Notes under the pieces: model-generated
Database searches by the model: none
What the model was told of the DNA's origin: nothing
What the model saw: the letters and a program-made list of their open reading frames with translations, nothing else
Position numbers and translations under genes: made by a program
Source of the DNA: an uncultured Brevinema sp.
GTDB lineage: Bacteria; Spirochaetota; Brevinematia; Brevinematales; Brevinemataceae
Direction of reading: 5' to 3'
Length of the DNA: 64,000 bases
Assembly (NCBI GenBank): GCA_947038195.1
Contig: CAMQVI010000002.1
Span: 1 to 64,000 of the forward strand
Shown here: positions 32,439 through 36,671 of the stretch, piece by piece
How the letters are laid out: every line of letters starts with the position of its first letter
Position numbering within the stretch: the stretch's first letter is position 1

Positions 32439-33464
32439 GTGGAATATTTTTTAGACTTTGACCTTCCCGAAGAGTTAATAGCCACCCACCCGTCTATAAA
32501 AAGAGATGGAGATAGAATGATTATATTTCAAGATAATCAAGTATCTCATGAGCATTTTACGCACATAAAAAACTATCTAAAAAAAGATGATATTATTGTC
32601 TTTAATAATAGTAAAGTCTTTAAAGCTCGCTTGGATATTTTTGCTATAAATAGAGAAGTGCAATCAGAACTATTGCTAATAAGACAAGAAAGTGCTATAA
32701 TATGGGTAGCTATGATTAAAAAAGCGAGACGTTTTAAAGTGGGAGATTCTTTTATTCTTAGTAATGGATTAAAAGTCAAAGTCCTAGAGATATTAGAAGA
32801 TGGGCTAAGACGATTGGAGTTCGAAAGATCGTTCTCACCCAAAGACGCAGAAGATATTGGACGTATCCCCCTTCCTCCTTATATCATCGATGAAAGGAAA
32901 AAACGAGGTGAAGACCTCTATACGAAAGAAGATGAAACCCGCTACCAAACGCTTTTCGCTAAATATTATGGTTCTGTAGCAGCCCCTACAGCATCTCTTC
33001 GTTTTTCCGAAGAAGTACTAAAAGAGTTAAAAGACTTTGGTATCCAATTTGAAGAAATTACCCTACATGTAGGGCTTGGGACTTTTAAACCCATGGATGT
33101 AAGTCCTGATGAATATGAGATTCATAAAGAATATATTTCCGTGGAACAAGATACCATAGAGAGGCTGTTAAAAGCTAAAAAAGATGGAAGACGTATCATT
33201 GCTGCAGGTACTACGGTATGTAGAGCCTTGGAGTCAGCTCAAGATAAAGCCTATGAAGGCTGGACGAATATCTTTATAAAGCCGGGCTATGAATTTAGTC
33301 TGATTGATGCCCTAATAACAAACTTTCACCTCCCCAATTCTACTTTGTTATTATTGGTACAGGCTTTTGTAGGAATAGAAAATACTAAAAAAATATACAA
33401 AGAAGCTCTAAAAGAAAAATATCGATTTTTTTCTTACGGAGATGGGATGATTTTATTCAAATAA
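32439..33464 (+). CDS. queA: S-adenosylmethionine:tRNA ribosyltransferase-isomerase QueA
   Basis: The 341-residue protein is QueA, which transfers and isomerises the ribosyl part of SAM onto 7-aminomethyl-7-deazaguanine at tRNA position 34, making epoxyqueuosine. Motifs are FDLPEELIATHPS, VFNNSKVFKARL, GRIPLPPYI, YGSVAAPTASLRF, LHVGLGTFKPM and ALITNFHLPNSTLLLLV. It starts at GTG 32439 after AAGGAG. No other queuosine gene is nearby. The cysteine mini-ORF begins 32 nt after its stop with no terminator between, so they share a transcript. Confidence 0.96.
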   Translation: MEYFLDFDLPEELIATHPSIKRDGDRMIIFQDNQVSHEHFTHIKNYLKKDDIIVFNNSKVFKARLDIFAINREVQSELLLIRQESAIIWVAMIKKARRFKVGDSFILSNGLKVKVLEILEDGLRRLEFERSFSPKDAEDIGRIPLPPYIIDERKKRGEDLYTKEDETRYQTLFAKYYGSVAAPTASLRFSEEVLKELKDFGIQFEEITLHVGLGTFKPMDVSPDEYEIHKEYISVEQDTIERLLKAKKDGRRIIAAGTTVCRALESAQDKAYEGWTNIFIKPGYEFSLIDALITNFHLPNSTLLLLVQAFVGIENTKKIYKEALKEKYRFFSYGDGMILFK

Positions 33465-33496
33465 TCCCATAAAGCATAAAATAAAAGGAGGCTACA

Positions 33497-33565
33497 ATGT
33501 CTTGTTGCAAAGTTATGTGTTGTTGTTGTAAAGGCTGGTGTTCCGTACAAAATCACGCAGGATAA
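33497..33565 (+). CDS. 22-residue cysteine-rich mini-ORF (leader peptide candidate)
   Basis: This ORF is too short for the ORF track. AAGGAGG (33485-33491) stands 5 nt before ATG 33497, a better ribosome site than most genes here. The peptide has 22 residues, 7 of them Cys: CC at 3-4, CCCC at 8-11 and one at 15 (MSCCKVMCCCCKGWC...). The stop TAA is at 33563-33565. Four nt later begins an RNA arm complementary to the start regions of the next two ORFs. It may be a regulatory leader peptide that senses cysteine charging or metal, or a tiny metal-binding peptide. I know no named family for it. Confidence 0.6.
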   Translation: MSCCKVMCCCCKGWCSVQNHAG

Positions 33566-33569
33566 GAAA

Positions 33570-33668
33570 GCCATATATTTTCATAGTAAAACTAGAGAGG
33601 AATATATGGCTCAAAAAATAAACAAAGCCTATATTCCTTATAAAAACAATTAAGGAAAAATATATGGC
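33570..33668 (+). promoter_or_regulatory. Alternative RNA hairpins controlling two start sites (translation attenuator candidate)
   Basis: GCCATATATT (33570-33579) pairs perfectly with AATATATGGC (33601-33610), placing the start codon of the 15-residue ORF in a stem with its ribosome site in the loop. The same arm extended to GCCATATATTTT (33570-33581) pairs over 12 bp with AAAATATATGGC (33657-33668), which covers the ATPase start codon. A third stem, GCCTATATTCCTT (33627-33639) with AAGGA...ATATATGGC (33652-33668), hides both the ATPase Shine-Dalgarno site and its ATG. The first two pairings are mutually exclusive. Confidence 0.6.
33606..33653 (+). CDS. 15-residue coupling mini-ORF
   Basis: A GAGAGGA site (33595-33601) precedes ATG 33606 by about 5 nt. 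The 15-residue peptide MAQKINKAYIPYKNN ends at TAA 33651-33653. The stop codon overlaps the AAGGA Shine-Dalgarno site of the ATPase (33652-33656), so terminating ribosomes would open the third hairpin and favour ATPase initiation. The peptide sequence is unremarkable; the act of translating it may be the function. Confidence 0.5.
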   Translation: MAQKINKAYIPYKNN

Positions 33669-35631
33669 AAAATGTGCTGGTGGATGCTGTTCGCATCAAG
33701 AAGATAACAAAAACGATCACGGTCACGACCATGACCACGATCAAAATCTCACTCTTCAAGAGATCCTAAAAGAATCATTTTTTGCGATAATATCATTTGT
33801 GATATTATTTGCTGGGATCATTATAGATTTTTTAAAAATTCCATTTTTTCAAGATACACTCACCCAATTAATTTGGTATGGTGTTCCTTTCATTTTGGTG
33901 GGTTTTCCTGTCATTCTAACTGCTATTAAGTTAATGCTTAAAGGTGACTTTTTCAATGAATTAAGCCTTATGTCTATTGCTACTATTGGTGCTTTTGTAC
34001 TCGGTGAATTTTCCGAAGGCTTAGGCGTTATGGTGTTCTATTCTATTGGAGAAGTGTTTCAAGGACTCGCCGTTTCTAAAGCTAAAAATAATATTAAAGC
34101 TCTTTTAGACGTAAGACCAGATGTAGCTTATGTTTTGAGAGGGGATGTAATTGTCCCTCTTGACCCAGAAGAAGTAGAAATTGGAGAAATAATAGAAATA
34201 AGAACAGGGGAAAAAATACCCTTAGACGGAGTTCTTATTACAGAAAAAGCGGCTTTTAACACAGCTGCCTTAACGGGAGAATCTGTCCCTCGTAACATTA
34301 AAGCTAACGAAGAAGTACTAGCTGGGATGCTTTCTTCTGATAAAACGGTAAGAATACAAGTAACTAAAACCTACCAAAATTCCACTCTTGCTCGTATCCT
34401 TACAATGGTACAAGAAGCCTCAGAGAACAAGTCCCCCACAGAACAATTTATTAGAAAATTTGCAAGGGTTTATACCCCTATTGTTTTTGGTCTAGCGACT
34501 CTACTTGTTATTGCGCCTTTCTTCATTTTAGGGGCTACAGAATATGAATTTGCTGATTGGTTCTATAGATCATTGATTTTCTTGGTAATATCTTGTCCCT
34601 GTGCTTTTGTCATTAGTGTGCCTTTAGGTTACTTTGGTGGTATAGGTCTAGGGTCTTCACAAGGAGTACTCTTTAAAGGAGGTAACTTCCTTGAAGCAAT
34701 GAACAACCTTAAAACCCTAGTTACCGACAAAACAGGTACTATCACTAAAGGAGTATTTACGGTACAAGAGGTAATCGCTGAAGATAAAGACCTTTTCTTT
34801 AAAAATTTACTAGCAATAGAAAAACACAGTACTCACCCTATTGCCAAAGCTATTATCGAATACCTTACAACCCAAAATATTTCTCCTGTAGAAGTAGATA
34901 AAGTTTCCGAAATTGCTGGTTTAGGACTAGAAGGACAAGTAAGCCAAGGCACTCTCCTTGTGGGTAATATTAAACTTATGGATAAGAATAATATTTCTGT
35001 GCCAGAACATCTTAGAAATATCGCTAAAACAGTGGTATTTGCAGGATTAAATAATAGTTTTCTCGGAGCTGCCGTAGTAGCAGATGAAATCAAAGAAGAC
35101 GCTAGATTAGCCATACAAAAACTTCACAAATTAGGAGTGAATGTCATCATGCTTTCTGGCGATAAACAAGAAATTGTTGACGAAATCGCCAAAGAACTAT
35201 CTATAGATGAAGCTTATGGGGAATTGTTACCTGCTCAAAAAGCAGAGTATTTTGAGAAAATCAAAAAAGAATCCAAACCCAAAGACATCATCGCTTTTGT
35301 GGGTGATGGTATTAACGATGCCCCTGTTTTAGCTCTTAGTGATGTAGGTATTGCTATGGGAGGACTAGGAAGTGATTTGGCTATTGAGACAGCAGATGTT
35401 ATTATCCAAACAGACGAACCTTCAAAAATCCCTCTTGCTGTAAATATTGCACAAGAAACTAGAAAAATCGTAGTACAAAATATCACCCTCGCTATGGGAG
35501 TAAAACTAATTGTTCTCTTTTTAGGTGCTTATGGTTTAGCCTCTATGTGGGAAGCTATCTTTGCCGATGTGGGTGTTTCACTAATAGCCACTGTTAATTC
35601 TACTCGTTTATTAGGTAAAGAATTTAACTAA
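33664..35631 (+). CDS. Heavy-metal translocating P1B-type ATPase (Zn/Cd/Pb type)
   Basis: The 655-residue pump has TGES (204-207), membrane motif SCPCAF with Cys-Pro-Cys at 311-313, phosphorylation site DKTGT (Asp355), an HP pair (about 392-393) and GDGINDAP near the C-terminus. CPC with this layout fits ZntA/CadA-type exporters. Instead of a full HMA domain, the N-terminus is a short tail with Cys4, Cys8, Cys9 (CAGGCC) and a His/Asp run (HGHDHDHD, about 19-26) that could bind metal. It lies behind two mini-ORFs and a hairpin system. A MerR gene follows after a terminator. Confidence 0.95.
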   Translation: MAKCAGGCCSHQEDNKNDHGHDHDHDQNLTLQEILKESFFAIISFVILFAGIIIDFLKIPFFQDTLTQLIWYGVPFILVGFPVILTAIKLMLKGDFFNELSLMSIATIGAFVLGEFSEGLGVMVFYSIGEVFQGLAVSKAKNNIKALLDVRPDVAYVLRGDVIVPLDPEEVEIGEIIEIRTGEKIPLDGVLITEKAAFNTAALTGESVPRNIKANEEVLAGMLSSDKTVRIQVTKTYQNSTLARILTMVQEASENKSPTEQFIRKFARVYTPIVFGLATLLVIAPFFILGATEYEFADWFYRSLIFLVISCPCAFVISVPLGYFGGIGLGSSQGVLFKGGNFLEAMNNLKTLVTDKTGTITKGVFTVQEVIAEDKDLFFKNLLAIEKHSTHPIAKAIIEYLTTQNISPVEVDKVSEIAGLGLEGQVSQGTLLVGNIKLMDKNNISVPEHLRNIAKTVVFAGLNNSFLGAAVVADEIKEDARLAIQKLHKLGVNVIMLSGDKQEIVDEIAKELSIDEAYGELLPAQKAEYFEKIKKESKPKDIIAFVGDGINDAPVLALSDVGIAMGGLGSDLAIETADVIIQTDEPSKIPLAVNIAQETRKIVVQNITLAMGVKLIVLFLGAYGLASMWEAIFADVGVSLIATVNSTRLLGKEFN

Positions 35632-35792: not shown

Positions 35793-35852
35793 AAGCTAAC
35801 AAGTAAGAAAAATTAGTCGCTAACACTTCTATTTTTCTAAAGGAGTAGATTG

Positions 35853-36671
35853 ATGTATCGTATAGGAGATTTTTCCAAGCTCAGTAAAACCACCGTCAAA
35901 ACACTGAGGTATTATGGAGAAATAGGCTTACTACAGCCAGAAGAGGTAGATGAGTTGACAGGATATCGCTTTTATACAAGCAAACAACTGTTTACACTTC
36001 ATAGAATACAGGCTCTTCGTCAAATAGGAATTTCCATTGATGAAATAAAAAAGATTGTGTCCGGACACAATCCTAATGACATTTTGGAAAAACGAAAGTC
36101 TGAAATGATAGCTCTTCTTTCCGAAACGAACGATCAACTCTCCCGACTTGAATTTATTTTACAAGGAAAACAGGAGGAAGAATTTATGAAATTCGTCGCT
36201 ATAATTAAAGAATTACCAGAGTGTATTGTCTATTCACTGAAAATGACAGTGCCAGACTATAATTCTTATTTTAACCTAATACCCGCTTTAGGAGAAAAGG
36301 TTCTTAAAAAATACCCAGATTTAAAATGTACAATACCAGAATATTGTTTTATTTCTTATCTTGATGGTGAGTATAAAGAAAAAGATATTAATATCGAATT
36401 TTGTGAGGCGGTGGATCAACTTAAGCCTGATTTTGATGGTATCGTTTTCAAAAAGATTGATTCTGTTACCGCAGTTTCTATCATGTATAAAGGTCCTTAT
36501 TCGCAGCTATTTCAAGCGTATAGTTTTGCTTTTAACTGGATAGAACAAAACGGATACACAGTTGTAGATTCTCCAAGAGAAAATTATATTGATGGTATTT
36601 GGAACAAAGATACCCCATCAGAGTGGCTAACAGAACTACAAATCCCAATCACTAAATCTTTGGAAAAATAG
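35853..36671 (+). CDS. MerR-family regulator with GyrI-like effector domain (BmrR-type)
   Basis: The 272-residue protein has an N-terminal MerR winged helix (YRIGDFSKLSKTTVKTLRYYGEIGLL, TGYRFYTSKQL), a dimerisation helix (about residues 80-115) and a C-terminal GyrI-like domain (about 120-270; AVSIMYKGPYSQLFQAYSFAFNWIEQNGY). That domain binds drugs or other cations in BmrR-type activators. There are no metal-coordinating Cys of the MerR/ZntR type, so it is probably not the sensor for the metal ATPase upstream. The ORF track begins at TTG 35850; ATG 35853 follows AAAGGAG. No efflux gene follows. Confidence 0.9.
   Translation: MYRIGDFSKLSKTTVKTLRYYGEIGLLQPEEVDELTGYRFYTSKQLFTLHRIQALRQIGISIDEIKKIVSGHNPNDILEKRKSEMIALLSETNDQLSRLEFILQGKQEEEFMKFVAIIKELPECIVYSLKMTVPDYNSYFNLIPALGEKVLKKYPDLKCTIPEYCFISYLDGEYKEKDINIEFCEAVDQLKPDFDGIVFKKIDSVTAVSIMYKGPYSQLFQAYSFAFNWIEQNGYTVVDSPRENYIDGIWNKDTPSEWLTELQIPITKSLEK

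Follow-up and report, generated by a model that had tools for sequence, protein, structure and literature searches.

A cysteine-rich leader ORF as a probable translational gate for a heavy-metal P-type ATPase in Brevinema

Zinc and cadmium exporters are usually under the control of DNA-binding metal sensors. We thus focus here on how such a pump may be controlled in an uncultured Brevinema, a genus in which the common metalloregulators appear to be missing and in which the pump gene is preceded by a very short, cysteine-rich ORF and an extensive RNA hairpin. The window analysed, a stretch of 64,000 nucleotides, is part of a 2.03-Mb draft genome of this genus, of which a 400-kb sample provided the background statistics. 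Within the window, queA, the leader elements and the ATPase all lie on the + strand.

The pump is a P1B-type heavy-metal ATPase (ZntA/CadA-like; 33664–35631), whose N-terminus, MAKCAGGCCSHQ...HGHDHDHD, is rich in Cys and His. Its profile scores, 526.7 bits for TIGR01525 (cut-off 346) and 453.8 bits for TIGR01512 (cut-off 313.5), exceed what NCBIfam requires for the heavy-metal and the cadmium subfamily, with Zn/Cd models as the best match. It also carries CPC together with N(x)7K and DxG near the C-terminus (N606, K614, D635, G637), which we take to be the residues of a Zn/Cd-type P1B pump.

Fur, DtxR, CsoR and CopY were found in none of the four Brevinemataceae genomes searched, and control genomes gave matches. 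ArsR is present in one of the four, the congener G002, which is also the species with a decayed leader (see below), a coincidence that amounts to a single case. There, an ArsR-type regulator (L104, 1441–2713) precedes not the ATPase but a permease whose Cys-rich loop reads KPCCCSSTKES. The sole MerR of the family genomes is of the GyrI type and lies downstream of the ATPase in the window (35850–36671); PF00376 (MerR) had no match in the other three. Brevinema thus appears to lack the common metalloregulators, an absence that is provisional since the genomes are 79–95% complete (G000 89%, G003 79%). In Bacteroidetes relatives of the ATPase (L069, L073, L075, L076, L081 and L082), a palindrome-like box, TTTGCAAC-N4/5-GTTGCA, recurs about 40–60 nt before the start and is probably the transcriptional operator of a metal regulator. 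This box is absent in Brevinema.

The leader ORF and the masked ATPase start

Upstream of the pump, on the same strand, queA (32439–33464) is followed by the leader ORF (33497–33565; ATG at 33497, TAA at 33563–33565), whose 22 codons encode MSCCKVMCCCCKGWCSVQNHAG, with seven Cys including CCCC, behind a Shine–Dalgarno site AAGGAGG at 33485–33491. The initial annotation of this DNA had called both the ORF and its ribosome site, and both are present. Among 5,844 ORFs of 12–40 codons in the 400-kb sample, no other combines a Cys content of 30% or more with a Shine–Dalgarno site; the one further ORF that rich in Cys, a 19-mer, has no such site. AAGGAGG is also found in G003, a congeneric uncultured Brevinema, where queA contains the leader Shine–Dalgarno site and its stop immediately adjoins the leader ATG (TAG-ATG). 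A single mRNA is therefore likely, with leader and ATPase inside a queA–ATPase operon. The leader has no terminator-like site on the + strand and no Rfam match at the gathering score, the best match (17.4 bits) being at chance level. A frameshift fusion of leader and ATPase was also set aside: in the window the two are out of frame with each other, and in G003 there are stops between them.

The switch arm, GCCATATATTTT (33570–33581), begins 4 nt 3′ of the leader stop and is complementary at 12 of 12 positions to AAAATATATGGC (33657–33668), which spans the ATPase ATG; the ATPase Shine–Dalgarno site, AAGGA, is at 33652–33656. The sequence thus confirms the spacing and the perfect 12-bp pairing that had been proposed. 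An alternative partner, AATATATGGCT (33601–33611), spans the ATG of a second short ORF of 15 codons, and here the pairing previously given as 10 bp extends to 11 of 11 positions when one more 5′ base is added to the arm. Two further stems lie inside. The inner stem, 33597–33611 with 33626–33639 (33597–33639 overall), hides the Shine–Dalgarno site and ATG of the 15-codon ORF, and a third stem, 33627–33640 with 33651–33668 (33627–33668 overall), hides those of the ATPase, as had been anticipated. These two stems are mutually exclusive and about equal in energy.

The masking is unusual for this genome. No other gene among 291 has a perfect upstream complement to its start as long as the 12 bp of the ATPase (the next is 10), and 0 of 2000 dinucleotide shuffles of the upstream sequence reached this length, in the window and in G003 alike. 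Hairpin z-scores are −6.5 in the window, −5.0 in G003 and −5.1 for the hairpin of the 15-codon ORF, and at 12.1 kcal/mol the ATPase start is the second most costly to open among the 291 genes (mean 5.1, sd 2.3). The costliest in the 400-kb sample is a gene start at L095 5927 on the − strand (12.6 kcal/mol). At L099 (15640–15840, − strand), another gene start has a 10-nt perfect upstream complement, CATGCTTCCC / GGGAAGCATG, making it a possible second masked start in the genome of the window.

The leader in related genomes

In G003 the leader, MSCCIVMCCCQIGACSPNCHAG, has the same length without indels and again seven Cys; 15 of its 22 residues are identical to those of the window, six Cys are in the same place and both peptides end in HAG-stop, at an ATPase identity of 71%. 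Seven codons have replaced their amino acid, several of them with all three bases changed, and the rest are nearly untouched, a pattern that looks like position-specific selection. The G003 arm, GCCATATATTTC, lies 3 nt 3′ of the leader stop and pairs over 12 bp with GAAATATATGGC at the ATPase start, with a compensatory change at pair 12 (T–A in the window, C–G in G003). In the third congener, G002, the leader contains in-frame stops, the pairing has shrunk to 7 bp and folding predicts an open ATPase start (2.8 kcal/mol). By its ATPase, G002 is the sister of G003 (80% identity, against 67–71% to the window), and the leader was thus probably present in their common ancestor. The sister genus, G001, has the same queA–ATPase order and no leader. 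On conservation among relatives that keep the ATPase, a check set out in the initial annotation, the outcome is mixed: ORF, spacing and pairing are kept in G003, ORF and pairing have decayed together in G002, and G001 lacks the leader. As only two genomes, the window and G003, carry the leader, covariation comes from one pair and conservation from one comparison.

A search with the leader peptide across the order gave good matches in the window and G003 only, with a weak one in G006 (42% over 19 residues, E 0.69). About 30 spirochaete ATPase loci, 15 other, mostly Bacteroidetes, ATPase loci and the viral contigs searched yielded no comparable Cys leader, and none precedes the copper-type ATPase paralogue in the four family genomes. 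In G001 (L005, around 1476) the ATPase itself begins MNCCCTNNQSCEP directly after queA, which resembles the Brevinema leader peptide; a copied pump N-terminus may be the origin of the leader.

The 15-codon ORF (MAQKINKAYIPYKNN, 33606–33653) is specific to the window. Its stop does overlap the ATPase Shine–Dalgarno site, as the first reading of the sequence had it (TAA at 33651–33653, AAGGA at 33652–33656). The start region occurs twice in the window, 58 nt apart (AACTAGAGAGGAATATATGGC / AATTAAGGAAAAATATATGGC), and the ATPase start of G003 aligns with the start of the 15-codon ORF. The simplest reading of this alignment is a local 58-nt duplication, in which the old start would have become the short ORF, with the new start behind it. 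G003 has no such ORF, its arm pairing straight with the start of the ATPase, and we thus reject the 15-codon ORF as a conserved second leader. This absence, and the appearance of the ORF as a duplication peculiar to the window, also leave it without support as a necessary relay between leader and pump.

Ribosome position and the opening of the ATPase start

The opening cost of the ATPase start was computed by folding, with the ribosome placed on each leader codon in turn, for the window and for G003. With A-site codons up to 21, the start stays at 7.8–15.5 kcal/mol in both; once the A site holds codon 22 or the stop, and only then, it drops to 3.7–5.3 kcal/mol in both species, that is, from about 12 to 3.9 kcal/mol in the window and to 4.9 kcal/mol in G003. 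Placing the 3′ ribosome edge anywhere from P+13 to P+19 leaves the outcome unchanged, and P+11 gives partial opening (7.4 and 6.4 kcal/mol). Folding with a ribosome footprint thus supports, sharply and in two species, the proposed unlocking step, in which a ribosome that has come to the end of the Cys ORF sits over the arm and sets the ATPase start free.

The accompanying claim, that such a ribosome frees the 15-codon ORF, is not supported by the folding: with the leader ribosome at the stop, the start of that ORF still costs about 8 kcal/mol, falling to about 4 in one branch with a queued ribosome. Two mutually exclusive stems then remain in the window, at −43.9 and −44.4 kcal/mol. The branch closing the 15-codon ORF leaves the ATPase start at 3.0 kcal/mol. 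In the branch closing the ATPase start, a queued ribosome puts the start of the 15-codon ORF at 4.1 kcal/mol, and translation of this ORF would fully open the ATPase start (1.5 kcal/mol). Both branches are thus predicted to lead to the ATPase, as an extra layer in the species of the window.

A ribosome at any Cys codon, on the other hand, leaves the ATPase start locked (8.2–13.7 kcal/mol in the window, 11.2–15.1 in G003), since some 40 nt separate the poly-Cys tract from the arm that follows it. Scarce Cys-tRNA, which had been offered as one possible trigger, thus fails as the opener, with stalls at any Cys codon keeping the start at 8–15 kcal/mol. The prediction for both species is that structure masks the start and a ribosome unmasks it, as in attenuators of the CutF, mgtQ and Erm types; unmasking, or prevention of termination, by a stall at Cys codons, as in Cys-tRNA attenuators (mycobacterial poly-Cys, uORFC-8-2), was found in neither.

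These results bear directly on what the leader might otherwise be. Seven Cys in 22 codons, with CCCC, readily suggest a cysteine-supply attenuator in which Cys-tRNA shortage stalls the ribosome in the poly-Cys tract and alters ATPase expression, and there are precedents for Cys-codon attenuators, reported by Canestrari 2020 as cited in later work and, with the uORFC-8-2 motif, before cysS. With no Cys codon opening the start in either species, however, starvation would predict the pump to be off, so that ordinary Cys-tRNA attenuation does not fit; the gene controlled is, moreover, a metal exporter and no cysteine gene, and we regard this reading as improbable. Plain translational coupling without sensing deserves more weight, although we still think it unlikely. 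Ribosomes from queA and the leader would open the hairpin or re-initiate, the leader would set the stoichiometry of the pump, and the Cys residues would be incidental or serve the peptide. The geometry requires only that a ribosome arrives at the leader stop, the leader ATG of G003 adjoins the queA stop, and ligand-free opening of hairpin-sequestered starts by an upstream short ORF is known from mgtQ. What coupling leaves unexplained is why six Cys codons are conserved amid residues that have turned over by up to three base changes per codon, and why the ATPase start is locked to such an extreme degree.

Two further readings concern the peptide itself and the possibility that nothing here is meaningful. 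The peptide could be a product in its own right, a tiny chaperone or metallothionein-like metal binder that is produced along with the pump and acts in trans, which would agree with its seven Cys in 22 residues, its strong Shine–Dalgarno site and its conservation at the protein level, as well as with the Cys- and His-rich N-terminus of the ATPase and the similar N-terminus (MNCCC...) in G001. It would not explain why the arm follows the stop by 3–4 nt in both species and decays jointly with the ORF, and as the explanation of the locus we give it slightly less credence than cysteine supply; a trans-acting peptide and a cis gate are, however, compatible and not mutually exclusive. Chance, that is, a meaningless ORF and hairpin in an AT-rich intergenic stretch, could be argued from the very narrow phylogenetic range, with nothing outside the genus among the spirochaete and Bacteroidetes-type ATPase loci. 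Against it stand the shuffles, none of which reproduced the pairing in either species, and an ORF unique in 400 kb that is kept in a congener whose ATPase is 71% identical; we find this reading scarcely credible.

A proposed gate and its known relatives

We consider it likely that the leader controls the ATPase in cis and constitutes a real, conserved and probably functional translational gate. With no ribosome at the end of the ORF, the arm would pair with the start-codon region of the ATPase and keep the start closed. Once a ribosome reads the final codon or the stop, it would lie over the first half of the arm, and with the stem opened in this way the ATPase would be translated, the opener thus being a ribosome that finishes or pauses at the end of the Cys ORF. 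In the species of the window, the two inner stems of equal energy, one of them around the 15-codon ORF, would add a second layer. As opening requires the ribosome to dwell at the ORF end, and what the ORF conserves is Cys together with a C-terminal HAG-stop, a thiophilic metal would be the likeliest trigger: Zn or Cd held by the nascent Cys chain would slow termination. The combination of a Cys-cluster peptide, a metal pump and the lack of an ordinary metal sensor likewise points to metal as the likeliest signal. Translation of the leader, its control over the ATPase and the role of metal as the signal are what we infer, and for the full explanation, a cis gate opened at the ORF end with a thiophilic metal as its signal, we lean in favour with modest confidence. 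More tentatively, and with more doubt than confidence, we suggest that the 22-residue Cys-cluster peptide binds Zn, Cd or another thiophilic metal while inside the tunnel, arrests at the stop, switches on the pump and so replaces the usual repressors (Fur, DtxR, ArsR, CsoR, CopY, metal MerR). All 22 residues are within the exit tunnel when the stop is reached, and the metal would thus need to enter the tunnel and act there.

Several known systems resemble parts of this scheme. In CutF–cutO of Rhodobacter capsulatus, a metal-bound nascent chain holds the ribosome and opens a stem-loop over the next start (PMC9973294). As in the leader, an ORF with a metal motif directly precedes a metal-homeostasis gene, a stem-loop covers the start, a ribosome at the ORF end opens it, and metal turns the downstream gene on, as we propose here. 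CutF is, on the other hand, larger, a DUF2946 protein exported by Sec that carries CxxxC as well as a stalling motif rich in proline and senses periplasmic Cu, whereas the leader encodes a 22-residue, cytosolic-type peptide before a Zn/Cd-type pump. In mgtQ–mgtB of Salmonella, translation of an 8-codon ORF within the operon frees the sequestered ribosome site of a P-type ATPase (PMC8092293); the very short ORF before a P-type ATPase is shared, but mgtQ relies on ribosome-destabilising Asp/Glu codons, serves an Mg2+ importer and has no Cys. The parallel drawn earlier with CruR of Bordetella pertussis is looser. A nascent chain with a Cys motif and a metal response during translation, the latter proposed for the leader, are common to both, but in CruR copper relieves RAPP arrest and so leads to Rho-dependent termination that turns an uptake operon off (PMC9426467), with no start-codon hairpin and in the opposite sense; CutF and mgtQ are closer. 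In both CutF and CruR the metal site lies farther out, whereas the leader chain is wholly inside the exit tunnel, a point against metal sensing by the leader.

The window leader peptide contains no proline, RAPP is absent by inspection in the window and in G003, and none of the known arrest motifs RAGP, RAPP and PPP occurs in the leader ORF, which likewise counts against the proposal. As a 22-residue peptide without signal or proline motif, it falls outside DUF2946 (CutF/CruR). The mycobacterial poly-Cys leaderless short ORFs of Canestrari et al. 2020 are reported to respond to cysteine (as cited in PMC13236596 and PMC9094748), and there too a poly-Cys short ORF precedes a structure-masked start. 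They differ in that stalling within the Cys tract is what opens the site, in being leaderless where our ORF has a strong Shine–Dalgarno site, and in preceding cysteine genes rather than a metal pump. TnaC and other ligand-dependent arrest leaders (PMC8429421) offer a short peptide whose ligand acts with the chain still in the exit tunnel, as proposed for the leader, but with Trp as the ligand, transcription antitermination as the outcome and no Cys cluster. In the literature searched, no zinc or cadmium arrest peptide was found. The leader hairpin system thus shares its working principle with CutF and mgtQ, without membership of DUF2946 and without the geometry of a poly-Cys attenuator.

If the metal-sensing gate is correct, a very short nascent peptide can stand in for a metalloregulator, in a compact system consisting of one 170-nt leader, one hairpin and one pump. 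The case also shows that a poly-Cys leader need not be a cysteine-supply attenuator: what decides is where the ribosome must stand for the structure to open.
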